A stretch of DNA of 64,000 bases from Nibribacter ruber (GTDB lineage: Bacteria; Bacteroidota; Bacteroidia; Cytophagales; Hymenobacteraceae). The notes under the pieces were generated by a model. The model searched no databases, was not told the origin of the DNA, and worked only from the letters and a program-made list of their open reading frames with translations. Of this stretch, positions 5,505 through 63,423 are shown piece by piece. Where the stretch lies: NCBI RefSeq assembly GCF_009913235.1, contig NZ_CP047897.1:4091001-4155000 (forward strand), written 5' to 3'. A program made the translations under genes and the position numbers. The stretch's first letter is position 1. Each line of letters begins with the position of its first letter.

Positions 5505-5542
5505 CGTTTTTGGCCTGTTTCCTGGAAAACAGGCCAAAAACT
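5505..5542. repeat. 38-bp palindromic repeat, copy 1
   Basis: Left half matches CGTTTTTGGCCTGTTTYC and the right half mirrors it; the outer CG/CG pair is CG/CT here. It sits between the NagZ-type gene and namZ and reaches into the NagZ stop codon at 5541-5543. Confidence 0.85.
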
Positions 5543-7340
5543 AAAGGCCATCACCGTACCTGAAGTGCTTATTCACAGTCACGGGCAGTTTGCCGGCCGG
5601 CTCCAGATTGCCCACTACCAAAGAGGCCGCTGCTGCCTGTATGGCCGGCAACTGCTGGTAGCCCACCAGAATGGACGTGGCCTGGTGAATGTCTGGGAAA
5701 TGGTCCAGAATGTAGGCGTTGTCAAACAAAACCACCACGCTGCGCTTTTTTCTGGACAGTTCATTGATGAGCGCCCTTTCCTCTGGCCCCAAGCCCAGGC
5801 TGTTGCTGGGCCGTATGCTGGGCCCGTATATGCTGAGCAAAATCAAATCATACTTGAGCAATTCTTTCCTGAGTTTCTTGATGTACTTGACGTTGCTCTT
5901 GCGCGGCAGGAAGAATTCCTTGACCGTGAGGTGGTTTTTAATGCGTTTCTGGAACACGGTGGTGGAAGAGGCGCCTACCGCCAGACTGGCAATGGAACGG
6001 CGTTTTCTGTTTTCAACCGGTATCTGGTGTTTCTTGTTCTTGAGCAGCGTCAAAGAGCCTTCGGCCAGGCGGCGTAGGGTTTCATGGGCCCGTGACTTGT
6101 GCAGGTCTTGGTACAGGCTGTCTAAGGGTACCGGCTGGTAATGATTCAAGCCCACCCAGTGTTTGGCGGCCAGCACTTTCTTGCAGCGGCGGTCTATTTC
6201 TTTCTGGCTTAGTCTTCCTTCCCTAATGGCTTTTTTGATGGCTGCCAGGGCCTTGGGCACGCTCACCAGACGTTCCAGTACATCGTTACCGGCTTCCAGG
6301 GCCATGACTTCGGCCTCGCCGGGCTTAAAGTATTTGGTCACGCCCTTCATGACCATGGCATCTGTGAAAATGAGGCCGGCAAAATCTAACTCCTTGCGCA
6401 ACAAACCGGTCACAATGGGCTTGGACAAAGAAGCCGGCAGGTTGGCGGTGCTGTCCAGTTTGGGCATGTGAATGTGACCCACCATCATGCCGCCCACCCC
6501 GCTCTGGATCAAATGCCTGAAGGGATACAGCTCCAGGGAGTCCAGACGGTCACGGCCGTAGGGGATGACGGGCAAGTCATAATGCGAGTCTACATCAGTG
6601 TCGCCGTGGCCGGGGAAGTGCTTGGCGGTGGCAATGATGCCGTTGTCCTGCATGCCCAGCATCTGCGCCAGACTCTTGGAACTCACGTCTTCTTTGTTCT
6701 CCCCGAAGGACCTGTACGAGATAATAGGATTCTGGGGGTTGTTGTTGACGTCCACTACCGGCGCGAAGTTCAGGTGCATGCCCAGCCGCTTGAACTCATA
6801 GGCCATCTCGGCGCCCATGCGGTAGATCAAGCTGTCATTGTTGATGGCGCCTAACAACATGGGCAGCGGGTACTGCATGGCGCTGTCCATGCGCATGCCA
6901 ATGCCGTTTTCGGCGTCCATGCCAATGAGCAGGGGTACTTTGGAGGCTGCCTGTAATTTGTTGGTGAGTTTAGCCTGGCGCACTGGTCCTCCCTGAAACA
7001 GCACAATGCCGCCCACTTTGTAGCGCCTGATCAGGTTTAGAACATCTTGCTCATGCTTGGGGCCCTGGTTGGAAAAGACCTCAATCATCATGAGTTGCGT
7101 GATGCGTTCATCTGGCGTGAGGCGCTTAAACACCGAGTCTACCCACTTGTTCTTTCTATTGAGGGCCGTGATGAGGGCGTTGGGGTATTGAATGGTGTCC
7201 TCGGGCTCAATGGGCGTGGGTTTGAACACTACGGTATGGTGCACCGGTTTTTCCTCTTTACAAGAAAAGGTGCCTATTCCCAAAAGAAGCAGCAATACAA
7301 AAAAACAGTAAGAAAGGGTTCTGGCAGATGAAGAAAACAT
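5541..7340 (-). CDS. Beta-N-acetylhexosaminidase lipoprotein (GH3, NagZ-like)
   Basis: A glycoside hydrolase family 3 enzyme that removes non-reducing GlcNAc from peptidoglycan fragments. The N-terminal barrel has KHFPGHGDTDVDSHYDLP, whose His/Asp pair is the NagZ-type general acid, and LIFTDAMVMKGV with the Asp nucleophile. A second alpha/beta domain of about 200 residues follows, so it is the long, two-domain form rather than the short enterobacterial NagZ. I prefer the ATG at 7340 over the one at 7376: the hydrophobic signal segment and the lipobox-like GTFSC then come early, suggesting a membrane-anchored envelope lipoprotein. Its neighbour is namZ, pointing to stepwise peptidoglycan breakdown or recycling. 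The longer start remains possible. Confidence 0.92.
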   Translation of the reverse strand: MFSSSARTLSYCFFVLLLLLGIGTFSCKEEKPVHHTVVFKPTPIEPEDTIQYPNALITALNRKNKWVDSVFKRLTPDERITQLMMIEVFSNQGPKHEQDVLNLIRRYKVGGIVLFQGGPVRQAKLTNKLQAASKVPLLIGMDAENGIGMRMDSAMQYPLPMLLGAINNDSLIYRMGAEMAYEFKRLGMHLNFAPVVDVNNNPQNPIISYRSFGENKEDVSSKSLAQMLGMQDNGIIATAKHFPGHGDTDVDSHYDLPVIPYGRDRLDSLELYPFRHLIQSGVGGMMVGHIHMPKLDSTANLPASLSKPIVTGLLRKELDFAGLIFTDAMVMKGVTKYFKPGEAEVMALEAGNDVLERLVSVPKALAAIKKAIREGRLSQKEIDRRCKKVLAAKHWVGLNHYQPVPLDSLYQDLHKSRAHETLRRLAEGSLTLLKNKKHQIPVENRKRRSIASLAVGASSTTVFQKRIKNHLTVKEFFLPRKSNVKYIKKLRKELLKYDLILLSIYGPSIRPSNSLGLGPEERALINELSRKKRSVVVLFDNAYILDHFPDIHQATSILVGYQQLPAIQAAAASLVVGNLEPAGKLPVTVNKHFRYGDGL

Positions 7341-7480
7341 GGAGCGTGCGTGGATTAGCCGACGGTGGTTCAGCATGGGACTTGTACTGCCAATCTACCG
7401 TTAGAGTTGCGCCTTTCGTTTACCGCCAAGTCATGAAAGCGGAGGCTTCTGATTGATCCTCAGCTTATTAGGGTGCCGGT

Positions 7481-7518
7481 CGTTTTTGGCGTATTTTCCA
7501 GAAAAGAGGCCAAAAACG
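7481..7518. repeat. 38-bp palindromic repeat, copy 2
   Basis: Reads CGTTTTTGGCGTATTTTC in the left half with a matching, imperfect right half (GAGGCCAAAAACG). It lies between the GH3 gene start and the dienelactone hydrolase end. Confidence 0.85.
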
Positions 7519-7548
7519 AAACAACGGCAGTATGCTTGGTTTTTAAAC

Positions 7549-7583
7549 GAAAAGAGGGAGCCGCTCTGTGCAGCTCCCTCTTT
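7549..7583 (-). terminator. Hairpin downstream of dienelactone hydrolase gene
   Basis: An 11-bp stem AAAGAGGGAGC / GCTCCCTCTTT with a short loop lies 26 bp past the stop of the minus-strand gene. The U-tract is short, so this is a moderate call. Confidence 0.55.
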
Positions 7584-7608
7584 CTATAAGTGCTTTGATT
7601 GAATCGGT

Positions 7609-8540: not shown

Positions 8541-8578
8541 CGTTTTTGGGCTGTTTTCTGGAAAAGAGGCTAAAAACG
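8541..8578. repeat. 38-bp palindromic repeat, copy 3
   Basis: Left half CGTTTTTGGGCTGTTTTC with an imperfect right half ending GGCTAAAAACG. It lies just downstream of the DUF2059 gene. Confidence 0.85.
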
Positions 8579-10511: not shown

Positions 10512-10553
10512 CGAAGAGGCCTGTTCTGTAAATGGACAGGCCTCTTCGTTTTT
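10512..10553 (+). terminator. Intrinsic terminator fused to a palindromic repeat
   Basis: A 13-bp perfect stem CGAAGAGGCCTGT / ACAGGCCTCTTCG with an 11-nt loop is followed by TTTTT. That T-tract and the preceding CG are the first bases of palindromic repeat copy 4. Confidence 0.85.
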
Positions 10554-10584
10554 GGGCTATTTTGGTGAAAACAGCCCAAAAGCG
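10547..10584. repeat. 38-bp palindromic repeat, copy 4
   Basis: Left half CGTTTTTGGGCTATTTTG and right half AAACAGCCCAAAAGCG. GGGC pairs with GCCC, an arm change on both sides compared with the GGCC form. It shares bases with the terminator before it. Confidence 0.78.
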
Positions 10585-10756
10585 GAGGCAAGTGGCTAAG
10601 TGTGAACCAAGACCAAAGCGCAAAATGCTGAGAAACTTTTGGCCGCAATAGGAAAATAGGAGCATTTGTGTCATCTTAACACATAAACCCCTTGTCTTTG
10701 TAGTAATGCGCCTTACCCGTCCTACACTGGAACGTCGGGCCTCTAAACGCATGTAG

Positions 10757-11671
10757 ATGAGCAAAACCGTGAGCCCGAAGATCAGTGTGGTGATTCCGCT
10801 TTACAACAAAGGGGCGTACATTGCGGCTACGCTTCAGTCTGTGCTGCGCCAGACCTTCCCCAGCTTTGAGGTCATCATTGTAGACGATGGGTCCACAGAC
10901 CAAGGACCGGCGGTGGTAGAAACCTTCCAGGATTCCCGCTTACGCATTGTGCATCAGTCCAACCTTGGCGTGTCTGCTGCCCGCAACCAGGGCATACGGC
11001 TGGCGCAGGCTCCCTACATTGCCTTCCTGGACGCCGATGACTTCTGGCAGCCTACTTATTTAGAAGAAATGCTCCGGTTCATAGAACGATATCCGGCCTG
11101 TGGATTGTACGTTTCGGCTCATCAGGTGGCAGAGAAGCACCAGGTGCTGGACCCTCCTAAAGATTTGCCGGAAGGTGTTTTGCCAGATTATTTTCATGCC
11201 GAGCTCACCTACAAGATTACCCGGCTTTCATCTACCGTGGTGCCCCGCCAAATTTGTGAAGAGGTAGGGGGCTTTCCTGTGGGTATGGTGAGCGGGGAGG
11301 ACAGTTATTTCTGCGGAAGGATAGCCATAGCCCACCCAGTGGCCTTTTTGACGAAGCCATTGGTCATCTATAACCAGCAGTACAGCGGCCTCCAGGACCG
11401 GTCCTTTAAAGGAGACACGTGCGCAGAAGATTGGTGTGACCTGTACCAGCCCGGGGCGTTTTACCAGAACGAGTTAGTAGCTGTCAAGGCCCTTAAGGCT
11501 GGTATTAGACTGGCCATGACGTTAAACAGAAGTCAAAGCAGAGCCATTGAGAAGAGAACCAGGTACACTGCCCTTTTCCAGAAGAAGTGGCGCTATCTCT
11601 ATTTCTTAAACCGGGTGCCCGCTCCGTTCATTCTGTTGTACAAAAAAATAAAGCCGCTGCTGGCAAATTAA
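10757..11671 (+). CDS. Family 2 glycosyltransferase
   Basis: A 304-residue inverting glycosyltransferase of family GT2, first gene of the polysaccharide locus. The N-terminal GT-A fold shows ISVVIPLYNKGAYI (about 9-22), FEVIIVDDGSTD (about 37-48), GVSAARNQGI (about 75-84) and the DXD-like FLDADDFW (about 93-100). The C-terminal third is Lys/Arg-rich and hydrophobic, compatible with peripheral membrane contact. It transfers a sugar from a nucleotide donor to a growing glycan; donor and acceptor cannot be read. A gap of 192 bp separates it from the exporter genes, so it may have its own promoter. Confidence 0.93.
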   Translation: MSKTVSPKISVVIPLYNKGAYIAATLQSVLRQTFPSFEVIIVDDGSTDQGPAVVETFQDSRLRIVHQSNLGVSAARNQGIRLAQAPYIAFLDADDFWQPTYLEEMLRFIERYPACGLYVSAHQVAEKHQVLDPPKDLPEGVLPDYFHAELTYKITRLSSTVVPRQICEEVGGFPVGMVSGEDSYFCGRIAIAHPVAFLTKPLVIYNQQYSGLQDRSFKGDTCAEDWCDLYQPGAFYQNELVAVKALKAGIRLAMTLNRSQSRAIEKRTRYTALFQKKWRYLYFLNRVPAPFILLYKKIKPLLAN

Positions 11672-11863
11672 CAGACAAATAGTTAGCCGTATAATTCGGT
11701 TTATCCGTATAATACTATATAATTCTTGAGTCAATCCAATATCAGATTGGCTACTTCACCTTCTCTTCGGCACACAATATCATAGCCAGGCGCTTGCCGG
11801 GCTGTATTGTTGGTATACCTGCGCTCACTTGTACAGCATCCACCTTGCTTCCCTCGGCGTTTT
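11672..11863. other. AT-rich gap before the ABC exporter genes
   Basis: No gene is visible. A direct repeat of CCGTATAAT occurs twice near 11688-11712 within an AT-rich stretch that also reads ACTATATAATTCTTG. It is a plausible promoter zone for the exporter and glycosyltransferase run that follows. Confidence 0.4.
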
Positions 11864-12721
11864 ATGTCAGGCACCGCTACAACCAATTGGGATTGGGAGA
11901 TCACCCCTAAGACTTCTTTCTGGGCGCACAGCACCCAGGAGTTGTGGGCGTACCGGCATTTGCTGGCAGGGTTGGTACGGCGGTACTTTCTTCTCAACTA
12001 TAACCAGACAGTGCTGGGGCCTCTTTGGATTCTGTTTCAGCCTGTTCTTACGCTGGCCACCTACGTGCTGGTGTTCAACAAACTGGTGGGCATCTCTACG
12101 GGCGCCTTGCCGCCGGTAGTCTTCTACGCCGCGGGCATTGTGCTCTGGAACTTCTTCAGCGACAGCTTTATGGGCACGTCTAACACCTACAGAGAGAATA
12201 TTCAACTGTTCAGCAAGGTCTATTTTCCTAGAATCATCATGCCGGTTTCAGTGGTGAGCACCCAGTTTCTGCGTTTCCTGATTCAGATGGGCATGCTGCT
12301 GGCTGTCATATTGTATTATAGTCTGGTTACTGACTACGCTTTTCAATGGACCTGGAACCTGCTGCTTTTGCCTGCGGCCGTTGCCTTGGTGGGTTTGTTA
12401 GGGTTGGGGCTGGGGCTTTTGTTTTCTGTGCTCACGGCCAAGTACCGTGATATTACCAACCTTGTAAGTCTGGGCGTGCGGCTGCTCATGTTCGTGACCC
12501 CGGTTATTTATCCTTTGACCGTCATTCCAGAAAAATTACGCTGGGTGGTGCAGCTCAATCCGCTTACGCCGCTGTTTGAGTTGTTCCGGCTTGCCTTATT
12601 AGGCCAGGGATTGGTCACGCCCATGCAGTTGGCGTACAGCTTGGTGCTAGCGGTAATATTGTTGCTGGGGGCTGTTCTGTTCTTTCAAAAGCAAGGCGAT
12701 AGATTGATTGATGTAGTGTAA
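11864..12721 (+). CDS. Polysaccharide ABC transporter permease (Wzm type)
   Basis: The membrane subunit of an ABC-2 type polysaccharide exporter, 285 residues from the ATG at 11864. The N-terminus has WAYRHLLAGLVRRYFLLNYNQTVLGPLW (split by function into the amphipathic coupling helix and first membrane segment), typical of Wzm/TagG proteins. Six membrane segments follow, with the conserved FSVLTAKYRDI loop and a PVIYPLTVIPEKLR periplasmic turn. Together with the adjacent ATPase it should move an undecaprenyl-linked glycan to the periplasm. I reject the longer frame from 11807 because its 19 extra residues do not fit the family. It lies 17 bp before the ATPase gene. Confidence 0.92.
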   Translation: MSGTATTNWDWEITPKTSFWAHSTQELWAYRHLLAGLVRRYFLLNYNQTVLGPLWILFQPVLTLATYVLVFNKLVGISTGALPPVVFYAAGIVLWNFFSDSFMGTSNTYRENIQLFSKVYFPRIIMPVSVVSTQFLRFLIQMGMLLAVILYYSLVTDYAFQWTWNLLLLPAAVALVGLLGLGLGLLFSVLTAKYRDITNLVSLGVRLLMFVTPVIYPLTVIPEKLRWVVQLNPLTPLFELFRLALLGQGLVTPMQLAYSLVLAVILLLGAVLFFQKQGDRLIDVV

Positions 12722-12738
12722 ACAGGAGAATTGGGGCA

Positions 12739-14040
12739 ATGTCTGAGACCGTCATCAAGGTAGAGCATCTTTATAAATTGTACCGTTTGGGTACCATTGG
12801 CACCGGTACGTTTCGGCGGGATGTGCAGCGGTGGTTCTCCCGTTCCGTTCTTAAAAAGCAAGACCCCTTCGTGCCAATAGAATCTGGTAAAAAAACGAGT
12901 CACATAGAAAATCAGTCCATCCTGGCCCTGCAGGACATCAACTTTGAGGTTAAGCACGGCGAGGCCATTGGCATCATTGGCAGTAACGGCTCCGGCAAGT
13001 CCACGCTGCTCAAAATCATCTCCAGAATTGTGAAGCCCACAGAAGGCACCGTGCGCGGAAGGGGCAAGGTAAGCAGTCTCTTGGAAGTGGGCACGGGCTT
13101 TCACCAAGACTTAACCGGCCGGGAGAACATTTACATCAGCGGGTACCTGCTGGGCATGAGCAAAGCCGAAATAAAGGCCAAGTTTGATGAGATGGTGGCC
13201 TTTTCTGGGGTGGAGGAGTTTATTGATACGCCCGTGAAGCGCTATTCTTCTGGCATGTACGTGCGGCTGGCCTTTTCCGTGGCCGCGCACCTGGAACCCG
13301 ATATTTTGATTGTGGACGAGGTGCTGGCCGTAGGCGATGCAGATTTCCAGAAGAAGTGCTTGGGCAAGATGCGCGAAGTGTCACAGGCGCAGGGACGCAC
13401 CATTTTGTTTGTGAGCCACAGCATGCAAGCCATCAAGAACCTCTGCGACAAAGCCCTCTGGCTGAACAAGGGAGAGTTACAGGCTTTTGGCGGAGTAAAT
13501 ACGGTGGTCAACCAATATCTCAATCATGCCCAGCACCACAAATTCAAGCAAACCTGGGCTTCGCCTACAGTGGCTCCCGGCAATGACTGGCTCAGGATAA
13601 AATCAGTGGAACTGGTGCCGCAGCTAGAAAACCCAGATGACCCTTTGGACATACGCGTGCCGCTCACGGTCCAGTGCCAGTTCTGGTGCTTAAAACAGGA
13701 TATACAGCTGAGCGTGGGGCTTTTGCTTTTCACCACTGGCGGCGAATGCATTTTTGACGTGCCCTCAGATCCCGTTTCCAGCCAGGTGGGCGTGATGGAA
13801 GCAGAGTGCACCATTCCGGGTAATTTCCTCAATGACGGCTCTTATTACATCTCACTCAATTTCGTGAAGGACACGTCGGTGGGCTTGTTTGACTTTGACG
13901 AGTGCCTGGCCTTTGACCTGGAAGACTATAGAGGGGACATACTATGGTATGGCAAATGGTGGGGAGCGGTACGTCCAAAGCTTCCTTTTGAGGTGAAATG
14001 TGCAGAGCCGGTTCTGGAAGAATCAACCCTAAGATTATGA
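12739..14040 (+). CDS. Polysaccharide ABC transporter ATPase with C-terminal glycan-binding domain (Wzt type)
   Basis: The ATPase partner of the exporter, 433 residues. Walker A GSNGSGKST is at 81-89, the signature is in the form YSSGMYVRLAF, and Walker B ends in VDE (192-194) followed by VLAVGD. After residue about 270 comes an extra beta-rich domain of about 150 residues, as in Wzt proteins that recognise the capped non-reducing end of the O-polysaccharide. This implies that chain length is set by a terminal modification; the methyltransferase domain encoded 1.3 kb downstream is a candidate. The stop overlaps the next start as ATGA. A teichoic-acid TagH role is unlikely in a Bacteroidota cell. 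Confidence 0.94.
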   Translation: MSETVIKVEHLYKLYRLGTIGTGTFRRDVQRWFSRSVLKKQDPFVPIESGKKTSHIENQSILALQDINFEVKHGEAIGIIGSNGSGKSTLLKIISRIVKPTEGTVRGRGKVSSLLEVGTGFHQDLTGRENIYISGYLLGMSKAEIKAKFDEMVAFSGVEEFIDTPVKRYSSGMYVRLAFSVAAHLEPDILIVDEVLAVGDADFQKKCLGKMREVSQAQGRTILFVSHSMQAIKNLCDKALWLNKGELQAFGGVNTVVNQYLNHAQHHKFKQTWASPTVAPGNDWLRIKSVELVPQLENPDDPLDIRVPLTVQCQFWCLKQDIQLSVGLLLFTTGGECIFDVPSDPVSSQVGVMEAECTIPGNFLNDGSYYISLNFVKDTSVGLFDFDECLAFDLEDYRGDILWYGKWWGAVRPKLPFEVKCAEPVLEESTLRL

Positions 14041-15302
14041 AAGCCTCCACCTCGTACCATATCCACCACCTGAACCTGAGCCACGGCCTACCGCTGCCAG
14101 ACCTCTTAGACATGGAGCAGGGCCAATACCTGGTGTTCTGGTGGAAATCATTGGCCCTTGGCCACGTTTTCCTGGAGTCGCGGTCAGGACTTACTCTGGC
14201 GCAGCTGCTATTAAAAGTTAGTGCCGCGCTTAAGCCGGCCGTAGAGATGTACGTAGCGCAAAGTGGTCTGCCTAAAACGTCCTGGCGGCTATGGATGGAG
14301 CAGGGGAAACAGGAAAAGTGGCTGCCTTACTTTCAGGACGTCTTTCAGGAAGCCATTCCGCAGGAGGTTCCTGCCACGGTCCCTATTTCTGTGGTAATCT
14401 GCACTTGTAACCGGGCACCGCAGCTACAGCAATGCCTGGACCGCCTGCTGCAACTTACCTGCCTTCCAGAGGAAATTATTGTAGTAGACAACGCGCCCAA
14501 AGACAACGCCAGCCAAGAGGTGGTGGAACAGTACCCTTCGGTGCGCTATGTACGGGAGAGCAGAATGGGGCTGGACGTGGCCAGAAACACCGGTGCCCGG
14601 CAAGCCAGTCTGCCAGTGGTCGCTTATGTAGACGATGACGTGACCGTGCACCCGGTGTGGGCGTATTATGTATGGGAGTCCTTCCAAAACCCAGACGTGG
14701 CTGCCCTAACGGGCCTGGTGCTGGCCTCGCACCTTAAGTCTGAGGCTCAGTGCATTTTTGAGAAGCACTGGAGTTTTAATCGGGGATTTGTGGAGAAAGT
14801 CTATGACACCTACTATTTCAAATCTACCCTGCCCAAGGGGCCGCCAGTCTGGGAGATAGGCGCGGGCGCCAACATGGCCTTTAGAAGAGAAGTGTTTCAG
14901 GAGGTGGGCTATTTTGACGAGCTGTTGGATGCGGGAGCGGCTGGCTGTAACGGCGACTCTGAGATGTGGTACCGCCTGCTGGCCAAAGGTTTTACCATTC
15001 TGTACAACCCCAAAGCCATCGTCTTTCATGAGCACCGCGAGAACGTGCAAGAATTGAAAAGGCAGATTTTCTTTTACATGCGCGGCCATGCGGTGGCAGC
15101 CCTCAAGCAGCACCGATACCACAAGGCAGGCTATCCCCAGTACTTAACCAAACTCTTGCTGGTGTCTTACAGCCGGCTGGCGATACGCGGCTTCCCTCAT
15201 TATTCCTTCCAGTACCAGACCTTGTGGGCGCAAGTAACGGGCTTGCTCTCCGGATTGGCTTTTTACCTAAAACACACCAGACACTGGAACCAAAAACCTT
15301 GA
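14037..15302 (+). CDS. Family 2 glycosyltransferase with extra N-terminal domain
   Basis: A 421-residue protein. Residues 1 to about 115 form a domain I do not recognise. The GT2 domain begins at ISVVICTCNRAPQL (about 117-130) and continues with EEIIVVDNAPKDN, RMGLDVARNTGAR and the DXD-like YVDDDVTVHP. A conserved EIGAGANMAFRREVF and a FHEHRENV motif sit in the acceptor half, as in many cell-surface glycan transferases. The start is the ATG at 14037 overlapping the ATPase stop (ATGA), so translation is coupled. The N-terminal domain has no glycosyltransferase motif and may bind a partner or the lipid carrier. Confidence 0.9.
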   Translation: MKASTSYHIHHLNLSHGLPLPDLLDMEQGQYLVFWWKSLALGHVFLESRSGLTLAQLLLKVSAALKPAVEMYVAQSGLPKTSWRLWMEQGKQEKWLPYFQDVFQEAIPQEVPATVPISVVICTCNRAPQLQQCLDRLLQLTCLPEEIIVVDNAPKDNASQEVVEQYPSVRYVRESRMGLDVARNTGARQASLPVVAYVDDDVTVHPVWAYYVWESFQNPDVAALTGLVLASHLKSEAQCIFEKHWSFNRGFVEKVYDTYYFKSTLPKGPPVWEIGAGANMAFRREVFQEVGYFDELLDAGAAGCNGDSEMWYRLLAKGFTILYNPKAIVFHEHRENVQELKRQIFFYMRGHAVAALKQHRYHKAGYPQYLTKLLLVSYSRLAIRGFPHYSFQYQTLWAQVTGLLSGLAFYLKHTRHWNQKP

Positions 15303-15308
15303 CGAGAC

Positions 15309-16943
15309 ATGGAAGAGATGCTTTCTATAGCGCAAGACACGCCCTTGGTATCGGTGATTATTCCGTGTTATAACCAGGGACATTTTCTGGCAAAGGCCAT
15401 AGAAAGCGTGCTTCATCAGAGTTATAAAAACACAGAAGTAGTAGTAGTGGATGACGGCTCTACAGATCAAACCGCGGTTCAGGCCCAGGCCTACCCACAA
15501 GTAATCTACATCTACCAGCAGAACCAAGGGTTGCCAGGGGCCAGGAACACGGGTATACGCCACAGCAAAGGCCATATGCTCCTGTTCCTGGACGCCGATG
15601 ATTGGCTCTACCCCAAAGGCATTGAAGCGAACGTGAAGCAACTGGAACAGCAGAAGGAGGCAGCCTTTGTATCAGGGACGTTTGATGCCTTCTACACGCA
15701 GGAAAACACCATACGAGAAGGGGCAGTGGCGGTACCGGATCATCATTATCTCCATCTGCTGCAGGGGAATTACATTGGCATGGTGGCCACGGTCTTGTTC
15801 AGGAGGTGGGTGCTGGAGGAGTTTCAGTTTGATACCGCCCTTAAAAACTGCGAAGACTATGACCTGTACCTGCGCATCGCCAGAAAGTACCCGGTGTGCC
15901 ACCATGCAGAAAAGATAGCGGCCTATCGGTTTCATTCGGCCAACATGTCTTCTAATATTCCCAAGATGCTGCAAGGAGCATTGGCCACCTTAAGAAGGCA
16001 AAGAGAACAGCTGGCCACCCAAGAGGAAAGGCGAGCCTACCAGAAAGGAAGAACCACCTGGAAGAAATACTACTGCAAAGAACTCTATGAGCACCAAGTG
16101 AAGCAAAAAGCGCCCATTACTGCCAACGCGCTGTTGACGTTTCTGCAGCACAGGCCGCATTACCTGCTCTCATACTCCCTTAAAGCGAACAAAACCATGG
16201 TAAAGAAACAAGTCAAGAAACTCATTCCCACCTCCTGGTTGAGGTACCTGCATCAGAATAGCTGGTATAGCCGTTTTGTGCCGCCGGTGGGGGAGGTGCG
16301 CTTCGGGGATTTTGGCATGACCAAACCATTCAGCAAGGAGTTTGGCTATGACCGCGGCGGCCCCATTGACCGCTACTACATGGAAAGTTTTTTAAAAGAC
16401 AATGCTGCCAGCATACAAGGCCGGGTGCTGGAGATAGGAGACAATGAGTACACTCTTGCCTATGGTCAGGAGAAAGTAACCAAAAGCGATATTCTGCATG
16501 TAGATGAAAGCAATGCCAAGGCCACGTTCATTGCAGACATCAGCCATGCCCCGCACTTACCGGCCAATGCCTTTGACTGCCTGCTGCTTACCCAGACGCT
16601 GCATTTAATTTATGACGTGAAAAGCGCCTTAGAAACCTGCCACCGCGTTTTGAAACCGGGCGGTCACCTCCTGTTAACCGTACCCGGCATCACGCCCATA
16701 GACCACGGCGAGTGGAAAGAAACCTGGTATTGGGCCTTCACGGACAAAGCCGTGCGCAAATTGCTGGAAGAAACTTTTCCGGGAGGCCACCTAGAGATAA
16801 GCACCTATGGTAATGTGTTTGCAGCCAGCGCATTTCTGTACGGACTAGGTCTGCCAGAAGTAGCTAAGGAAAAGTTAGACGTCCAGGATCCTCACTTCCA
16901 GGTAATCATTGCGGTGCGCGCCACAAAATCTGCAGTATGCTAG
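15309..16943 (+). CDS. GT2 glycosyltransferase fused to SAM-dependent methyltransferase
   Basis: A 544-residue two-domain protein. Residues 1 to about 230 are GT2: LVSVIIPCYNQGHFL, TEVVVVDDGSTDQ, GLPGARNTGI and the DXD-like FLDADDW near residue 96. A helical linker with basic residues follows. From about 345 a class I methyltransferase appears: GRVLEIGDNEYT (about 371-382, motif I), a DISHAPHLPANAFD block and a LKPGGHLLLTVPG motif. The first domain should add a sugar and the second probably methylates the glycan. Placed after a Wzt with a glycan-binding tail, a chain-capping methylation is an attractive but unproven role. The last 7 bp overlap the deacetylase start. Confidence 0.92.
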   Translation: MEEMLSIAQDTPLVSVIIPCYNQGHFLAKAIESVLHQSYKNTEVVVVDDGSTDQTAVQAQAYPQVIYIYQQNQGLPGARNTGIRHSKGHMLLFLDADDWLYPKGIEANVKQLEQQKEAAFVSGTFDAFYTQENTIREGAVAVPDHHYLHLLQGNYIGMVATVLFRRWVLEEFQFDTALKNCEDYDLYLRIARKYPVCHHAEKIAAYRFHSANMSSNIPKMLQGALATLRRQREQLATQEERRAYQKGRTTWKKYYCKELYEHQVKQKAPITANALLTFLQHRPHYLLSYSLKANKTMVKKQVKKLIPTSWLRYLHQNSWYSRFVPPVGEVRFGDFGMTKPFSKEFGYDRGGPIDRYYMESFLKDNAASIQGRVLEIGDNEYTLAYGQEKVTKSDILHVDESNAKATFIADISHAPHLPANAFDCLLLTQTLHLIYDVKSALETCHRVLKPGGHLLLTVPGITPIDHGEWKETWYWAFTDKAVRKLLEETFPGGHLEISTYGNVFAASAFLYGLGLPEVAKEKLDVQDPHFQVIIAVRATKSAVC

Positions 16944-17950
16944 GGACTAAGCTCAAACATATGGTAAAAGCGTATTTTCAGCCCAGGGCGTTGGTGTTGA
17001 TGTACCATCGGGTGACTGATTCTAGCCAGGATGTCTGGGATATCTCAGTGCGCCCCGACCTGTTTGAGCAACAACTGCAACTATTACAAGAAGACTACCA
17101 GGTCCTACCCTTGCCAGAATTAGTGGCACGTGCCGACAAAAACAGCCTGAAACGAAAAAGCATTGCCCTCACCTTTGATGACGGTTACCTAGATAATTTT
17201 CTGGTGGCCAAGCCCTTGCTGGAGAAATATGGGTTGCCGGCCACCTTCTTTATTGCCGGTGGCCAAGCGGAGGCTGAGAAGGGATTTTGGTGGGATGAGC
17301 TGGAAGACCTGGTGTTAGGGAGCCAAAACCTTCCGGCACGTTTCTCCATGGCAGTGGCGGGTGCCAAGGTAGAAATAGAACTAGATAAAGAGAGTTTCCT
17401 GACAGGCAGCCTCCAACAAAAGCTCAGTCAATGGAAAGCCGTAGGGCAGGAACCAGAAACCCAGAGAGGTAAGCTTTTTCTACAACTGTGGCAGCTGCTT
17501 CGGCCGCTACCTTATGTAGAACAACAAGACTACTTAGCCCGGTTAAGGGAATGGGCAGGTGCGCACAACATAAGCAAGCCAGCACATGGCAGAATGTCTC
17601 AGACCCAGTTGCAGGATTTGGCACGGCATCCGCTTTTCAAACTGGGAGGGCACACGGTGTCTCATCCTTTGCTGTCATCACTAAGCAAGGCGCGGCAGTA
17701 CCAAGAGCTGGCAGAAAACCAGGAGGTTTTGCAAGACCTCACAGGGAGCCCGGTTCAGGCCTGTTCTTTTCCTTACGGAGCCTACAACTCAGACAGCCTG
17801 GCGGTGGCTCAATCACTTGGCTACACCGCCGCCTTCACCACGCAGGAGAAAAGCATTTCGCGGCAAACAAACCCTTTCCAACTGGGAAGGGTGCAGGTTC
17901 CAAACCTGAGCAAGCAAGCCTTCGGGCAGTTTCTTAGCTATCCCAGATAA
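16937..17950 (+). CDS. Polysaccharide deacetylase (NodB homology)
   Basis: A 337-residue carbohydrate esterase 4 type protein. The NodB fold is seen in ALTFDDGYLDN (T79-G83 core, with D81/D82 as catalytic base and metal ligand), GGHTVSHP with metal-binding H239 and H243, and ACSFPYGAYN. An insertion of about 120 residues, Gln/Leu-rich, separates motif 1 and motif 2, longer than in minimal NodB proteins. No signal peptide is evident; the N-terminus is basic and mildly hydrophobic, so it may act in the cytoplasm or at the inner face of the membrane. It probably removes N-acetyl groups from sugars of this locus. Its start overlaps the previous stop. Confidence 0.9.
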   Translation: MLGTKLKHMVKAYFQPRALVLMYHRVTDSSQDVWDISVRPDLFEQQLQLLQEDYQVLPLPELVARADKNSLKRKSIALTFDDGYLDNFLVAKPLLEKYGLPATFFIAGGQAEAEKGFWWDELEDLVLGSQNLPARFSMAVAGAKVEIELDKESFLTGSLQQKLSQWKAVGQEPETQRGKLFLQLWQLLRPLPYVEQQDYLARLREWAGAHNISKPAHGRMSQTQLQDLARHPLFKLGGHTVSHPLLSSLSKARQYQELAENQEVLQDLTGSPVQACSFPYGAYNSDSLAVAQSLGYTAAFTTQEKSISRQTNPFQLGRVQVPNLSKQAFGQFLSYPR

Positions 17951-17966
17951 AGTAACGCTTACGCTT

Positions 17967-19963: not shown

Positions 19964-19993
19964 CCTTTTCTAACCTATACTGCTAGCCCAGCC

Positions 19994-22056: not shown

Positions 22057-22110
22057 TTTTCGTCTTAGGCTGGAAGGAAAATCTTCGGTTCGTTCTTTAA
22101 TAGTCCATGA

Positions 22111-22156
22111 GCGTCGTTTTTGGCCTGTTTTCCAGGAAACAGGCCAAAAACGACGC
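22111..22156. repeat. 38-bp palindromic repeat, copy 5, extended to 46 bp
   Basis: The 38-bp core is 22115-22152; flanking GCGT and ACGC extend the palindrome. Arms GGCCTG / CAGGCC. It follows the last gene of the polysaccharide locus and could end its transcript. Confidence 0.9.
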
Positions 22157-25779: not shown

Positions 25780-26290
25780 TGCTGGCCTCGTTTTTGGGCT
25801 GTTTTCTGGAAAACAGCCCAAAAACGAGGCTGCTACAGCTAAGAATTCACTAGGGGAACTTAAGTACGCTGAGAATTCTTACCTTGTAAAGCTTTTTAAC
25901 CTACTCAACGTGATTCACCCCAAAACGGAAGTAACTACTATCAGCAGCCATGATTTTGAACAGGCCAGAATAAAGCACGTGCTGTTCAAGTCTAAGCTAC
26001 GGGCCTTGTTGTTTGGTGCGTCCATAGACCCAGAACCCGTTTTGTCAAACAACGCTTGTTCTCTGGGTCAATGGATTAAGCAAGTGGCTTTCCCACAGCT
26101 AGGAGACAGCCCAGACATGCACCGGCTAGACCAGTTGCATGACCAACTGCATGACACGGCCCGCCATTTGTACCAGCTGTACCAAAATGGCAAGCAGGAG
26201 CAGGCCCAGGAAGGCCTAGCCCAGGTAGACGCGCTGGCAGATGCCTTCCTACACCTCTTAACGGACATAGAAAAAAAGGCCTTGCTGTAG
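25769..26290 (+). CDS. Stand-alone CZB (zinc-binding) domain protein
   Basis: The C-terminal 120 residues match the chemoreceptor zinc-binding domain: HDFEQARIKHVLFKSKLRAL, CSLGQWI and LDQLHDQLHDTARHLYQLY supply the His and Cys ligands typical of the fold. CZB domains sense zinc or hypochlorite, usually fused to chemoreceptors or diguanylate cyclases; here it is alone. The start is unsure. The ATG at 25769 overlaps the SDR end by 11 bp, but the first 21 codons then run through palindromic repeat copy 6. A GTG at 25910 would exclude the repeat and leave 127 residues. An intrinsic terminator follows 26 bp after the stop. Confidence 0.72.
   Translation: MSIDAGLVFGLFSGKQPKNEAATAKNSLGELKYAENSYLVKLFNLLNVIHPKTEVTTISSHDFEQARIKHVLFKSKLRALLFGASIDPEPVLSNNACSLGQWIKQVAFPQLGDSPDMHRLDQLHDQLHDTARHLYQLYQNGKQEQAQEGLAQVDALADAFLHLLTDIEKKALL
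25785..25830. repeat. 38-bp palindromic repeat, copy 6, extended to 46 bp
   Basis: Core 25789-25826, perfect palindrome with arms GGGCTG / CAGCCC and matched flanks GCCT / AGGC. It lies inside the first codons of the CZB frame if translation starts at 25769. Confidence 0.9.
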
Positions 26291-27908: not shown

Positions 27909-27946
27909 CGTTTTTGGCCTGTTTTCTGAGAAATAGCCAAAAAACG
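27909..27946. repeat. 38-bp palindromic repeat, copy 7
   Basis: Left half CGTTTTTGGCCTGTTTTC, right half GAGAAATAGCCAAAAAACG, imperfect. It sits 20 bp after a strong terminator and 57 bp before the M28 gene. Confidence 0.82.
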
Positions 27947-31474: not shown

Positions 31475-32578
31475 CTAGTCACAGGTGGCAAAGAACTGCA
31501 ACATGCCGGTGCGGCCGCTCTCCAGCAGGGTTTGCTTGTCTTTCTCAGACAAACGCTTGATTTTGGGCCCGTAACCAGCGGTACTCACAGAGACGGTACG
31601 GTCCCAGTCGGCGGGGGTGAGCTCATGGCGGTTGAGGTTTTCTGCCACAATGCGGTAGAAGGCATTTATGTAATCTGAAAAAGATTCAATGGAGTTGGGT
31701 GCCAGGCCTTTTCGCTCTCGGTCATAGGCAATCTGGGCTTCATGGTCCAGCCGTATGCCAATGGTTTCTGGGTTGATGAACCGGGTTTTGGGTATTTCGG
31801 CTGGGGCGGTTGCGGAAAAGTACTTAGGATGGTCAAACACCATCAGCGGGAAGTCCATGAGCACGCCGCCGTCTACCATCACGTCTGTGACCTGGTTGGG
31901 CTGCGGCGTAGGGTACACCCGGCCGGTGCTGTCCATGAAAACCGCCTGAAAAAACATGGGCACCGACATGGAAATCCTCACCGCATCTTTCACGCGCATG
32001 GTAGGATACGTCTCATGGCTGAAAACCTCGGTGCGCTGCCTGGATAAGTTGGTGCCCGTGATGTACAAATCCCTGCAGCCGTTTTTACCCGCCAGCGCAT
32101 GTAGTTCCTGAAAGGTCAAATCTGGGTTACCCGTGCGTTTTTCAATGAGGCTAGAAATCCATTGCGTGAATTTTTCGCCGCGGTACCAGCCGTAGCGGTT
32201 GGCCATGCGCGTAAAGCCGCCAATGAACAAAAAACGCCCGTCGGCAAACTTCTGGATGGGCGTCTCAAAGGTCACCTTGGTAATTTCCTCGGGCGTATAG
32301 CCCACGGCCAGCAAACAAGCCTGTATGGCCCCCGCCGAGGTGCCGGCAATCCGTTCAATGGGCTGCAACAACCCACGCTTGTCTAGCTCGGCCAACGCCC
32401 CTCCATACGCAATGCCCCTGATGCCGCCGCCTTCCAGGGCCAGGTTCTTGTAGACGTGGGTAGGAGAGGTAGACTGGGCTTGTAGTTGAAAAGATAGTGC
32501 AAAAGCAGTAAGTAGGAAACAGAAGGAAAGGCGTTTTTCGGCAATTTTCCGGAAAACAGGGCAAAAACGGAAGGGCAT
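31475..32578 (-). CDS. Patatin-like phospholipase, N-terminus built from a palindromic repeat
   Basis: A 367-residue patatin. The oxyanion loop GGGIRG is at 50-55, the nucleophile S81 lies in GTSAG, and the catalytic Asp is in MVDGGVLMDFP. It should cleave acyl chains from lipids. A hydrophobic signal-like stretch runs from about 17 to 34 (LSFCFLLTAFALSFQLQAQ). The only ATG that reaches it is at 32578; codons 4 to 16 are then copy 8 of the 38-bp palindrome (FCPVFRK...). No ATG, GTG or TTG occurs between the repeat and the signal segment, so the repeat probably became part of the coding region or translation begins at a non-standard codon. Confidence 0.88.
   Translation of the reverse strand: MPFRFCPVFRKIAEKRLSFCFLLTAFALSFQLQAQSTSPTHVYKNLALEGGGIRGIAYGGALAELDKRGLLQPIERIAGTSAGAIQACLLAVGYTPEEITKVTFETPIQKFADGRFLFIGGFTRMANRYGWYRGEKFTQWISSLIEKRTGNPDLTFQELHALAGKNGCRDLYITGTNLSRQRTEVFSHETYPTMRVKDAVRISMSVPMFFQAVFMDSTGRVYPTPQPNQVTDVMVDGGVLMDFPLMVFDHPKYFSATAPAEIPKTRFINPETIGIRLDHEAQIAYDRERKGLAPNSIESFSDYINAFYRIVAENLNRHELTPADWDRTVSVSTAGYGPKIKRLSEKDKQTLLESGRTGMLQFFATCD
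32532..32569. repeat. 38-bp palindromic repeat, copy 8, inside a reading frame
   Basis: Left half CGTTTTTCGGCAATTTTC, right half CGGAAAACAGGGCAAAAACG. It is more degenerate than other copies and lies within the first 16 codons of the patatin gene. Confidence 0.75.
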
Positions 32579-32688: not shown

Positions 32689-32726
32689 CGTTTTTAGCCT
32701 GTTTCTCAGAAAACAAGCCAAAAACG
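32689..32726. repeat. 38-bp palindromic repeat, copy 9
   Basis: Left half CGTTTTTAGCCTGTTTCT, right half ending GCCAAAAACG; GC/GC flanks extend it to 32687-32728. It lies downstream of the unknown gene at 32767. Confidence 0.85.
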
Positions 32727-35470: not shown

Positions 35471-35507
35471 CATTTTTGGCTTATTTTCTAGAGAATAGAC
35501 TAAAACG
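35471..35507. repeat. Palindromic repeat, copy 10 (degenerate)
   Basis: Left half CATTTTTGGCTTATTTTC, right half TAGACTAAAACG. At 37 bp it is the only copy not 38 bp long and the most decayed. Confidence 0.6.
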
Positions 35508-35595
35508 AAAGTCTAAGAAAAAATATAGTTGTCAATTTTTCGGTTGTGGCGGGGTGATGGAAGCGCTTGATTTGTGGTATAAACCATGTAACGCT

Positions 35596-37476: not shown

Positions 37477-37617
37477 GTTTACCACTCGCTCGCGTTCCGC
37501 GAGTGTGAGTTATGGGAGACGTCCTGTCGCTAGGCAAGTAGCAAAGTGACCAAGTCAAATTATAGCGGCCAGAGGCCAATCGTACTTTACACACGCGGGA
37601 CGCGAGCGAATGTAAAC
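37477..37617. repeat. MITE-like element with terminal inverted repeats
   Basis: Arms at 37477-37501 and 37594-37617 are inverted copies, about 22 of 24 positions matching with one extra base in the left arm. Each begins GTTTAC at the outer end and includes CGCTCGCG. The inside (about 90 bp) has no reading frame. It lies between the ada stop and the next terminator. No target-site duplication is obvious, so the label MITE-like is tentative. Confidence 0.6.
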
Positions 37618-37660
37618 GGATCGGGCTGACTCTTGCAGAGAGTCAGCCCGATCCGTTTTT
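37618..37660 (+). terminator. Strong hairpin terminator abutting a palindromic repeat
   Basis: A 16-bp perfect stem, GGATCGGGCTGACTCT on the left, with a 5-nt loop; the T-tract is the TTTTT of repeat copy 11. It would stop transcription from ada. Confidence 0.85.
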
Positions 37661-37691
37661 GGCTTATTTTCAGCAAAAGAGGCTAAAAACG
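37654..37691. repeat. 38-bp palindromic repeat, copy 11
   Basis: Left half CGTTTTTGGCTTATTTTC, right half AAAAGAGGCTAAAAACG. It lies 6 bp after the stop of the minus-strand M28 gene and shares bases with the terminator before it. Confidence 0.82.
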
Positions 37692-39464: not shown

Positions 39465-39502
39465 CGTTTTTGGTCCTTTTTCCAGGAAACAAGCCTAAAA
39501 CG
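39465..39502. repeat. 38-bp palindromic repeat, copy 12
   Basis: Left half CGTTTTTGGTCCTTTTTC, right half GGAAACAAGCCTAAAACG. Imperfect. It is between the SDR terminator and the M28 gene. Confidence 0.75.
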
Positions 39503-41164: not shown

Positions 41165-41202
41165 CATTTTTGGCCTGTTTTCCAGAAAAGAGGCTAAAAA
41201 CG
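41165..41202. repeat. 38-bp palindromic repeat, copy 13
   Basis: Left half CATTTTTGGCCTGTTTTC, right half AAAAGAGGCTAAAAACG. It ends 3 bp before the DPP IV stop codon. Confidence 0.85.
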
Positions 41203-44476: not shown

Positions 44477-44514
44477 CGTTTTTCGCCTCTTTTTCAGAAA
44501 ACTAGTCAAAAACG
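44477..44514. repeat. 38-bp palindromic repeat, copy 14
   Basis: Left half CGTTTTTCGCCTCTTTTT, right half GAAAACTAGTCAAAAACG. A degenerate copy directly after the recR stop. Confidence 0.7.
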
Positions 44515-46534: not shown

Positions 46535-46572
46535 CGTTTTTGGCCTATTTTCTGGAAAAGAAGCCAAAAACG
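46535..46572. repeat. 38-bp palindromic repeat, copy 15
   Basis: Left half CGTTTTTGGCCTATTTTC, right half AAAAGAAGCCAAAAACG. Directly after the GT2-fusion stop. Confidence 0.83.
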
Positions 46573-49169: not shown

Positions 49170-49207
49170 CGTTTTTAGCCTCTTTCTGGGAAAATAGCCT
49201 AAAAACG
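49170..49207. repeat. 38-bp palindromic repeat, copy 16
   Basis: Left half CGTTTTTAGCCTCTTTCT, right half GGGAAAATAGCCTAAAAACG. First of two copies that flank a terminator. Confidence 0.83.
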
Positions 49208-49243
49208 AACGGCCTGCCACTTTTTAAGTAGCAGGCCGTTTTT
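49201..49243 (-). terminator. Bidirectional terminator between two palindromic repeats
   Basis: A 10-bp stem AACGGCCTGC / GCAGGCCGTT with a loop that ends in ACTT/AAGT-like pairs. Its A-tract is the end of repeat copy 16 and its T-tract the start of copy 17. It serves hemE on the minus strand and possibly the kinase gene on the plus strand. Confidence 0.82.
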
Positions 49244-49274
49244 AGGTTGTTTTCTGGAAAAGAAGTCAAAAACG
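49237..49274. repeat. 38-bp palindromic repeat, copy 17
   Basis: Left half CGTTTTTAGGTTGTTTTC, right half AAAAGAAGTCAAAAACG. It ends 2 bp before the hemE stop codon. Confidence 0.8.
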
Positions 49275-50308: not shown

Positions 50309-50312
50309 AGTA

Positions 50313-50320
50313 CAAAGATA
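50313..50320 (-). promoter_or_regulatory. TAnnTTTG-type -7 box upstream of hemE
   Basis: Reads TATCTTTG on the minus strand, ending 4 bp before the start codon. Use of this box would give a leaderless or nearly leaderless transcript. The -33 element is not clear. Confidence 0.35.
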
Positions 50321-50478
50321 CGTAAAAGCCCCACCTAGCGAAGGCCGTTCTCAATTTTTGGGTATGTCCTTCGCAGAAACTACTTCTAAAGTGCAAGGCT
50401 CTGCCAAACACGGAATAGGTATAGGTGTATATCTACTAATTATATAATGGAAAAGTTATATTTATAAAAGTGCAATTA

Positions 50479-51096
50479 TTATTTAAAAAGTGCAATTAGA
50501 GCCGTTATGATAAAGCTTACGCCCAATGATAAGACTATGAAACCCATTATCTTAGACATGGCCGCAAGTCCCGCTTTGCCCATAAATACCATGAGCTTAG
50601 GAGAGAAAAGCAGCACCACGTAGGTCATAAGCCCAAGCAAAGAAATAGCCAATAGAGTTAAACCCATGTCCAGAATGGAAAGAGAGGTGGTGTACAAGCT
50701 AATTACCACCGCAATGGAGCCGGGGCCAGAGAGCAGCGGCATGGCCAGAGGCGTGAAAGATATGTCTTCCTTCTCAATTCCTTCGGCCACTACGTCCTTA
50801 GAAATCTTCTTGCTTTCTTCTGGCTTGGCGTTGAGTAAATCAAAACCGGCCCGCATGATCATGATGCCCCCGGCAATGCGAAGGTCATGAATACGCAATC
50901 CAAAGAAGTCCAGCACCGCCTGTCCCGCCAGAAAGAAGACTGCCAGAATGAGCACCATGTACAGGCAGGCACGCCGGGCAAGATGGGCCCTTCGGGCGGG
51001 AGTGTCTGACTGGGTGAGCGTAAGGAAGACAGGCATGGCTCCAAACGGATTGATCACAGAGAACAGGGCAGAAAAAGTAGCAAGTAGGATTTCCAT
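50479..51096 (-). CDS. MarC family integral membrane protein
   Basis: A 205-residue protein with six predicted membrane helices. FSVINPFGAMPVFLTLT at the N-terminus and MPLLSGPGSIAVVISL in the middle are the paired MarC motifs. Once linked to multiple antibiotic resistance by name, the family is now seen as a transporter-like group of unknown substrate. No signal peptide beyond the first helix. It stands between hemE and the pseudo-receiver gene on the same strand, but the spacing (over 90 bp with a terminator) makes co-transcription unlikely. Confidence 0.92.
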   Translation of the reverse strand: MEILLATFSALFSVINPFGAMPVFLTLTQSDTPARRAHLARRACLYMVLILAVFFLAGQAVLDFFGLRIHDLRIAGGIMIMRAGFDLLNAKPEESKKISKDVVAEGIEKEDISFTPLAMPLLSGPGSIAVVISLYTTSLSILDMGLTLLAISLLGLMTYVVLLFSPKLMVFMGKAGLAAMSKIMGFIVLSLGVSFIITALIALFK

Positions 51097-54160: not shown

Positions 54161-54198
54161 TGATTTTAGCCAGTTTTCCAGAAAACAAGCCAAAAACG
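54161..54198. repeat. 38-bp palindromic repeat, copy 18
   Basis: Left half TGATTTTAGCCAGTTTTC, right half AAAACAAGCCAAAAACG. It lies in the leader of the histidine phosphatase gene, 29 bp before its likely ATG. Confidence 0.75.
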
Positions 54199-54816: not shown

Positions 54817-54854
54817 CGTTTTTAGCCTGTTTTCTGGAAAATATGCCAAAAACG
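54817..54854. repeat. 38-bp palindromic repeat, copy 19
   Basis: Left half CGTTTTTAGCCTGTTTTC, right half GGAAAATATGCCAAAAACG. Begins 1 bp after the histidine phosphatase stop and shares CG with the terminator that follows. Confidence 0.82.
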
Positions 54855-54896
54855 GAAAGGCCCGCCAAATTCAACTTGGCGGGCCTTTCCGTTTTT
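54853..54896. terminator. Bidirectional terminator between convergent genes
   Basis: A 16-bp perfect stem, CGGAAAGGCCCGCCAA on the left, 7-nt loop, T-tract on the right and the repeat's A-tract on the left. It can serve both strands. Confidence 0.9.
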
Positions 54897-56217: not shown

Positions 56218-56255
56218 TGTTTTTAGCCTGTTTTCTGGAAAATAGGCTAAAAACG
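56218..56255. repeat. 38-bp palindromic repeat, copy 20
   Basis: Left half TGTTTTTAGCCTGTTTTC, right half GGAAAATAGGCTAAAAACG. Here AGCC pairs with GGCT, a two-sided change from GGCC. It follows the exonuclease gene. Confidence 0.88.
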
Positions 56256-59104: not shown

Positions 59105-59142
59105 CGTTTTTGGCTTGTTTTCTGGGAAATAGGCGAAAAACG
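59105..59142. repeat. 38-bp palindromic repeat, copy 21
   Basis: Left half CGTTTTTGGCTTGTTTTC, right half GGGAAATAGGCGAAAAACG. Imperfect. Confidence 0.82.
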
Positions 59143-59679: not shown

Positions 59680-59717
59680 CGTTTTTGGCCTGTTTTCCAG
59701 AAAATAGCCCAAAAACG
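59680..59717. repeat. 38-bp palindromic repeat, copy 22
   Basis: Left half CGTTTTTGGCCTGTTTTC, right half GAAAATAGCCCAAAAACG. It ends 3 bp before the pseudouridine synthase stop codon. Confidence 0.85.
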
Positions 59718-60690: not shown

Positions 60691-60695
60691 GAAAC

Positions 60696-60733
60696 CGTTT
60701 TTGGGCTTTTTTCTGGAAAACAGGCTAAAAACG
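60696..60733. repeat. 38-bp palindromic repeat, copy 23
   Basis: Left half CGTTTTTGGGCTTTTTTC, right half GGAAAACAGGCTAAAAACG. Between the small membrane protein start and the DUF2007 gene stop. Confidence 0.82.
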
Positions 60734-61158: not shown

Positions 61159-61184
61159 GGCTGGAATAAAATAAGGGCAAACGT

Positions 61185-63278: not shown

Positions 63279-63385
63279 AGGCAGAAGATTAGCGCAACTC
63301 TATCATTTAGCAAGATAGAACAAGTTCTATACAACGCATAAGACTTTTGAGTTGAACTTGTTTTGCGGGTGGGTTATTGCCTACC

Positions 63386-63423
63386 CGTTTTTAGGCTGTT
63401 TTGGTGGAAATAGGGGAAAAACG
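63386..63423. repeat. 38-bp palindromic repeat, copy 24
   Basis: Left half CGTTTTTAGGCTGTTTTG, right half GTGGAAATAGGGGAAAAACG. Degenerate in the middle. Confidence 0.75.

Follow-up and report, generated by a model that had tools for sequence, protein, structure and literature searches.

The DNA uptake sequences (DUS) of Neisseriaceae carry more information than is needed to find their sites, and the highly iterated palindrome of cyanobacteria (HIP1) is frequent in genes. HIP1 is an 8-bp palindromic word present in very many copies (PMC4390886), and the uptake words of Neisseriaceae occur in dialects, lie in terminators and inside genes, and in some cases stand in dyad pairs (PMC3630211). REP (repetitive extragenic palindrome), REPIN and BIME elements are palindromes of 20–40 bp, intergenic and of high copy number (PMC3733652); the hallmarks of the REP/RAYT system are a repeat tagged on one side only with unpaired GTAG or CGTC (PMC3733652) and a RAYT gene flanked by the repeats (PMC2817692). 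The element treated here is a 38-bp dyad that occurs in 24 copies in the window, that is, the whole stretch of 64,000 nucleotides analysed (Nibribacter ruber, contig NZ_CP047897.1, positions 4,091,001 to 4,155,000), and it is probably a double-stranded DNA recognition site that is read by a protein and has evolved in place. It does not appear to be primarily an RNA hairpin or a mobile repeat.

Like the DUS, the dyad has a high copy number, species dialects, and copies both inside genes and in terminator hairpins (PMC3630211). Unlike the DUS and the uptake signal sequences (USS) of Neisseriaceae and Pasteurellaceae, which are short words, it is 38 bp long, lies outside called genes in 328 of 353 copies, belongs to Bacteroidota, and is accompanied by no T2SSE match over the cut-off in any of the six genomes of its genus that were searched. 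With REP, REPIN and BIME it shares the palindromic form, the size class, the intergenic placement and the high copy number (PMC3733652); unlike those elements and their RAYT, it has neither the GTAG or CGTC tag nor a dependence on RAYT, it is fully symmetric, its arms are independent in most copies, its positions are shared between relatives, and its two traced copies arose by substitution. HIP1 is likewise a palindromic word in very many copies, but it is 8 bp long (PMC4390886), whereas the dyad is 38 bp long, mostly intergenic and divided into dialects. Intrinsic terminators are resembled by a minority of the dyads (class A, see below), which form longer hairpins, half of them with A- or T-rich edges; most dyads, in contrast, show no pairing beyond chance and have their T and A runs the other way round.

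Copy number, spelling and dialects

All 24 copies reported in the initial annotation are present where it had placed them, and 23 of them keep the 38-bp register, as it had counted, the exception being the degenerate copy at 35471. When scored with a symmetrised weight matrix built from those same copies, the 24 reach 33.6–62.3 bits, against −3.4 bits for the next-best non-overlapping place in the window and −1.5 for the maximum over 20 Markov shuffles. The window's own genome (G000) is one contig of 4,352,178 bp; its genus is called Rufibacter here, and G240, G228, G302, G301, G300, G299, G294 and G196 are relatives in that genus. In G000 the strict pattern has 410 forward and 397 reverse matches (overlapping sets), the core pattern with at most one mismatch has 1,107 copies and the looser, skeleton-only pattern has 1,513, each with a control of 0. 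By matrix, 192 copies were counted in 464 kb and 359 in 864 kb (reversed control 0 at the same threshold), that is, one per 2.4 kb, and the first matrix at threshold 0 gave 193 matches against 1 in the control. The copy number extrapolated from the sample is 1,803 (about 1,800), and the estimates for five Rufibacter genomes run from 1,510 (G240) to 2,368. Many hundreds of further copies, for which a genome-wide search had been suggested, are thus present in the own genome and in relatives; as with the DUS, there are more than 1,000 copies, far above chance, and about 1.6% of the chromosome (1,803 × 38 bp, by estimate) consists of one recurring, position-conserved DNA word, the copies of which share a spelling that drifts.

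The skeleton of the dyad consists of four T-tract boxes: GTTTT stands at positions 2 and 13 and is mirrored in the other half, and the two boxes of a half lie 11 bp apart. GTTTT pairs occur at spans 36, 25 and 14; in G302 the inner boxes read CATTT. At the centre (positions 19–20), TG or CA is strongly preferred in G000, G240 and G302, not in G228, and self-complementary central steps are avoided in the same three genomes (z −7.8, −3.1 and −7.9, respectively; 0.4 in G228). In the species matrices of these four well-sampled genomes, the consensus is CGTTTTTGGCCTGTTTTC in G000 and G240, CGTTTTCGGGCTCATTTC in G302 and YGTTTTGGGCCTGTTTT in G228, and small samples from other genomes of the genus give the weaker consensus YGTTTTNNGNCTGTTTT. 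By these spellings the four genomes show three dialects, the consensus differing in concert between species. Matrices trained on half of the sites assigned held-out sites to their own dialect in 56 of 58 cases for G302 and 51 of 60 for G228; G000 and G240, which have one dialect in common, were poorly separated (137 of 179 and 25 of 51 test sites). Species dialects over shared positions, a property of DUS, are present with G000 and G240 counted as one. The density is similar across dialects (0.36–0.43 per kb in the four genomes, 0.39–0.82 in small samples). The site information is 42–51 bits in the four genomes and 25 in G196, values raised by the score threshold at which the site lists were cut, and about 11 bits would suffice to find the sites.

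The core pattern with at most one mismatch has matches in 6 of 291 genomes of the order, namely four of the genus, own genome included (1,107, 554, 48 and 5), and two others with one each; none of the 41 genomes drawn from other genera of the family has it. The skeleton-only pattern is found in 16 of 16 Rufibacter genomes, with 77 to 1,513 matches each and 0 to 2 in the controls. At the hemE loci a threshold of 10 was used: with the G228 matrix, Pontibacter, Adhaeribacter and Cyclobacteriaceae have 2, 0 and 0 matches (controls 0, 0, 0), and with a looser Rufibacter matrix 23, 10 and 26 against 14, 9 and 19 in the controls, so there is at most a slight excess. No GTTTT-box signal was seen at these loci, where a weak dialect could escape, and their top spaced words are different, for example CCCCT at span 22 in Pontibacter. 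In addition, the element has no exact match in viral_contigs, a set that may omit records closely related to the window's genome, no match in Rfam at gathering thresholds and none in a tRNA search. The view that no described family has this sequence agrees with the literature searched: none of the papers listed, from a library with few subscription journals, describes the 38-bp dyad.

Arm pairing, kept positions and copies in his genes

It had been proposed that the arms of the element change together, that the hairpin rather than the sequence is what is kept, and that the family might serve as a bidirectional terminator or 3′-end stabiliser. An RNA hairpin is improbable as the primary function. 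For the 24 copies as a set, covariation scores 0.099 where shuffles average 0.110, and 399 of 500 shuffles reach the observed score; among 341 copies there is no left-right linkage at the mirrored variable arm positions 8, 10, 11 and 13 (z −1.1 to 2.1). Linkage is found within a half, between positions 10-11, 28-29, 8-11 and 11-13 (z 3.9–7.1).

The copies of G000 were sorted by the flank pairs that extend the dyad outward in exact register, class A having at least four and class B at most one; copies scoring 25 or less, or lying too near a stretch end, were dropped from class and folding counts, which kept 338 of 358. Class A comprises 44 copies (13%), class B 245 (72%) and an intermediate group 49, and the split is also present in G240, G302 and G228. 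Class A is where a hairpin finds its support: 41 of the 44 copies have at least five flank pairs against about 1 expected, the inner positions are paired and covary (position 10: 0.89 vs 0.53, z 6.2), an A- or T-rich edge is present in 22, and 40 of the 41 with called neighbours lie in co-directional or convergent gaps. The window's two class A copies, 22115 and 25789, are both among those from which paired change had been cited, and for this minority (44 of 338) paired change holds true and the terminator idea fits. A minority of the dyads has been secondarily built into terminator-like hairpins.

Class B, however, pairs no more than chance would give, with position 13 anti-paired (z −3.0). 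Exchange of halves is without cost in three of four genomes, the folding energies of real and half-swapped class B copies being −12.41 and −12.60 in G000 (245 copies), −9.93 and −10.49 in G240 (75) and −14.37 and −14.79 in G302 (63), which speaks against a family-wide function of the hairpin; that the hairpin is what is kept finds no support in the 72% of copies that form class B. Moreover, the stem has its T runs before it and its A runs after it, the reverse of an intrinsic terminator, and elements occupy 38 of 87 divergent gaps of at least 100 bp. A weak terminator detector made 110 calls, and 60 on the reversed control; by these calls, 4 of 192 copies have an overlap of over 15 nt with a terminator, and elements and intrinsic terminators co-occur about as expected.

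Some results weigh against a DNA site. The left-right covariation of G228 at outer positions 6–8 (z 3.2–7.2, all copies) favours a hairpin, and in the same genome the folding excess is strong when all copies are taken (z −12.2) and slight in class B alone (z −2.1); a folding excess over all copies is also present in G000 (z −2.4) and G302 (z −3.3), where it is carried by class A, and cross-half linkage occurs near the centre (18-21, z 4.0; 18-29, z 3.6). A DNA dyad is the best reading nevertheless, because the motif is strand-symmetric, mostly free of pairing constraint, and not significantly oriented with respect to transcription (p=0.2 for half scores, p=0.096 for a TG vs CA centre; 186 copies).

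As to covariation at positions 6–8 in general, the G228 sample (L140-L143, L161-L170) is unlike the other three genomes. At position 7, z is 3.9 in G302, in which only this position covaries, and 4.1 in G000, in which position 7 is nearly invariant.

The element had also been called REP/MITE-like, that is, a REP moved by RAYT or a miniature inverted-repeat transposable element (MITE). The small palindrome, its high copy number and its mostly intergenic placement agree with such a mobile repeat, as do Y1_Tnp (RAYT-like) genes in 15 of 16 genus genomes, and of the three Y1_Tnp genes in G000 (L003, L004 and L005) one, L005, has a 38-mer on each side. It is highly improbable, however, since G240, which lacks any Y1_Tnp match, still has an estimated 1,510 copies, and no target-site duplication could be detected (no significant direct-repeat excess at lengths 1–10, 181 copies). 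The element is symmetric, CG...CG, without an unpaired GTAG or CGTC tag in it or in the flank columns, the arms lack left-right linkage, and in the examined gaps that differ between species there is no regular length difference of 38. The REP/RAYT, MITE and terminator readings were each tested and rejected as family-wide explanations. The flanks of L003-L005 hold other hairpin repeats, such as GGGGATTTGGAAATCCCC beside L003 and CTCGCCTCTGGCGAG beside L004.

Positions were compared by gap, window against six relatives, with counts given as neither/relative only/window only/both occupied; short gaps help such tables, and hence a version for gaps of at least 60 bp was made. For G240 the counts are 32/0/0/17 (p 1.5e-13; at least 60 bp, 16/0/0/16, p 1.7e-9), for G228 25/2/1/13 (p 8e-8; 14/2/1/12, p 2e-5), for G302 13/3/1/8 (p 0.0012; p 0.012), for G301 11/6/1/8 (p 0.012; p 0.08) and for G300 11/6/1/7 (p 0.02; p 0.025), while G299, with 3 gaps in all and 2 of at least 60 bp, is uninformative. 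Orthologous copies (14 pairs in G240, 9 in G228, 6 in G302) have a core identity of 0.90–0.93, which is biased upward because the copies were found by matrix, and a flank identity of 0.38, 0.28 and 0.26, respectively. Since the same gaps are filled across species though the flanks are near random, the element behaves as non-mobile. The independent evidence for kept positions is the gap occupancy together with the his genes.

Eight genes with an internal copy were scanned, all of which match Pfam families, and three are histidine genes of one cluster. Among them, hisC (assigned by its aminotransferase domain and its position between hisD and hisA) and hisA could be followed through orthologues; the searches gave no match in 2 of 25 genomes, and the paralogues L214 and L215 were left out of the hisC comparison. 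The orthologous segment is 39 nt in 23 of 23 genomes for each gene, and in both the site is present in five of five Rufibacter and absent from 18 of 18 orthologues of other genera. With the G000 matrix, hisC scores 33.0 to 51.5 in Rufibacter and −50 to −102.5 elsewhere, and hisA 19.6 (G294) to 47.1 and −22 to −64. The difference carries through to the encoded residues: G000, for example, has RFQPVFQKIAEKQ, and most other genera have DFQ or NFQ followed by unrelated residues. An insertion of 38 bp, a length not divisible by 3, would break the frame, which rules out simple insertion for both copies; with the segment length unchanged, they arose in place by base substitution. Arising by point change, also inside genes, is a property of DUS as well, and it is found here for the two traced copies. 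Taken together, the comparisons show a constrained DNA dyad, its positions kept in the tested region, which was made by substitution in hisC and hisA.

Candidate roles of the DNA site

The dyad would be read by a putative Rufibacter DNA-binding protein, probably dimeric; as the specificity of this reader drifted, the 1,500–2,400 sites would follow, being held genome-wide by selection or drive. The most likely mechanism, tentatively and by analogy, is a self-recognition code of the DUS type, in which an uptake receptor would favour DNA fragments carrying the word, and recombination would drive the word toward saturation in tolerant DNA, mostly between genes. The other candidate within the DNA-site reading, possible in our estimate, is an architectural or roadblock site: an abundant nucleoid-type or insulator protein would occupy about one dyad per sizeable gap, bend the DNA at the T-tracts and the TG/CA step, and isolate neighbouring transcription units or block read-through.

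Genes were called by codon usage with approximate starts, so that some of the 25 copies with full flanks inside called genes (7% of 353) owe their place to misplaced starts. With 328 of 353 outside, though 78% of the 464-kb sample is called coding, the family is dispersed and mostly intergenic, as the initial annotation had it. Several features agree with an architectural site: the four boxes set 11 bp apart within a half of the dyad; the order of occupancy in gaps of at least 100 bp, convergent (57/68) above co-directional (141/228) above divergent (38/87); the bias to 3′ ends, the fullest 10-bp bin being 0–10 nt 3′ of the stop codon; the presence of 4 to 12 copies in every one of 20 scattered stretches of 20 kb; and the single filling of gaps, those of at least 45 bp with 0/1/2/3/4 copies numbering 204/230/34/1/1 against 295/105/39/17/8 expected from a length-proportional Poisson distribution. 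That is to say, a gap usually holds at most one copy.

An architectural role fits less well with the 42–51 bits, far above the roughly 11 needed, and with the copies inside his genes. It can be argued, too, that a concerted dialect shift of many individually weak sites is hard without drive. Occupancy, moreover, is higher the farther away the closest element of another gap lies (coefficient 0.43, bootstrap sd 0.15, 368 gaps), a dependence across gaps that speaks against this role, and HU-family genes are not expanded, there being one strong match in each of the 50 family genomes searched. The same count makes the HU family uninformative as a candidate for the reader protein.

We lean slightly to an uptake-type drive, an architectural site being nearly as likely, because dialects, copies inside genes and copies in terminators are features of uptake words, and the excess information and the spacing across gaps fit a drive. 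A ComEC family gene in 16 of 16 genus genomes is counted for uptake. Transformation is possible in Bacteroidota: in Riemerella anatipestifer, ComEC, DprA, ComF and RecA are among the genes essential for transformation (PMC8459023), and Riemerella columbina, also of Bacteroidota, prefers its own DNA (PMC7965970).

Against uptake, and in part against the DNA-site reading itself, stand the following points. A drive does not call for the bias to 3′ ends and convergent gaps, and called genes contain only the 25 copies just mentioned. The dyad form itself is unexpected, the known uptake words being short and not obligate dyads. T2SSE, the secretion and pilus ATPase family by which a type IV pilus uptake machine was looked for, is over the cut-off in none of the six Rufibacter genomes searched, two of which have partial matches below it. 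The even spacing is clear in G000 and G228, present in G302 only at 5 kb and not found in G240 (variance/mean of counts per 5 kb: 0.60, 0.65, 0.68 and 0.88, the last with P 0.28), with evenness at 10 and 20 kb confined to G000 and G228. Finally, gap concordance is weaker in the more distant relatives G302, G300 and G301.

It is possible that uptake is the role and the code one of a new type: a 38-bp dyad with a dimeric receptor and a Bacteroidota uptake machine without type IV pili, driven to roughly 2,000 sites that change their spelling together from species to species, with enough force to alter codons in histidine enzymes. Such a code would be, to our knowledge, the first well-defined one in Bacteroidota, and DNA choice in transformation without type IV pili would become testable. 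For Riemerella and Flavobacterium, the part of PMC7965970 consulted gives only AT-rich k-mers as untested candidates for uptake words. An architectural site would instead be an insulator-type site of bacteria, open to mapping one gap at a time, and the dialects offer a natural experiment in the co-evolution of a recognition protein with thousands of its sites.

The 24 copies of the window

No strand is assigned to any of the copies. Class A is represented by 22115..22152, with 4 outward flank pairs and 17 of 18 inner pairs, and by 25789..25826, with 4 outward flank pairs and all 18 inner pairs, the latter overlapped by a called start at 25769 that is probably misplaced. Class B begins with 5505..5542 (score 56.5), whose right end overlaps the stop codon of the minus-strand gene 5541-7376 by 2 bp, and continues with 7481..7518 and 8541..8578, whose gaps are also filled in G240, G228, G301 and G300, and with 10547..10584, a GGTG centre variant whose gap is also filled in G240 and G228. 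The gap of the class B copy 27909..27946 is filled in all five relatives in which both neighbours are adjacent. The copy 32532..32569, likewise of class B, is overlapped by the called start, probably misplaced, of 31475-32578, and shares its gap with a second copy, 32689..32726, which is intermediate with 2 flank pairs. Also of class B are 39465..39502 and 41165..41202, then 44477..44514 and 46535..46572, which lie 1 nt and 4 nt past a stop codon, respectively, 49170..49207 and 49237..49274, paired in one convergent gap, 56218..56255, with 1 flank pair, and 59105..59142, 59680..59717 and 60696..60733. The degenerate copy 35471..35508 (score 31.0) is one base short on the right, has 2 flank pairs and is better kept in its G240 orthologue; 54161..54198 is intermediate with 2 flank pairs and a degenerate left end, and 63386..63423 is a second GGTG centre variant, with adjacent flank bases c/a unpaired.

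The two remaining class B copies, both in convergent gaps, abut terminator-like hairpins, inverted repeats (perfect or nearly so) that run into the ends of the elements: the first 5 bases of 37654..37691 overlap the 20-bp perfect inverted repeat 37614-37658, and 54817..54854 has its AAAAACG end in common with the hairpin 54848-54896.

The longest stretch of the window without an element, about 11.5 kb from 10584 to 22115, contains the closely packed plus-strand genes of 10757-22056, and the conserved gaps of that region are also empty in G240 and G228. One gap of the window keeps an apparent point-mutated remnant of the element. Beside hemE, the gap 50308-50479 holds an element in five relatives (scores 37–60) and neither an element nor a visible remnant in G000 and G240, which means either that one lineage has lost the element cleanly or that the other has gained it.

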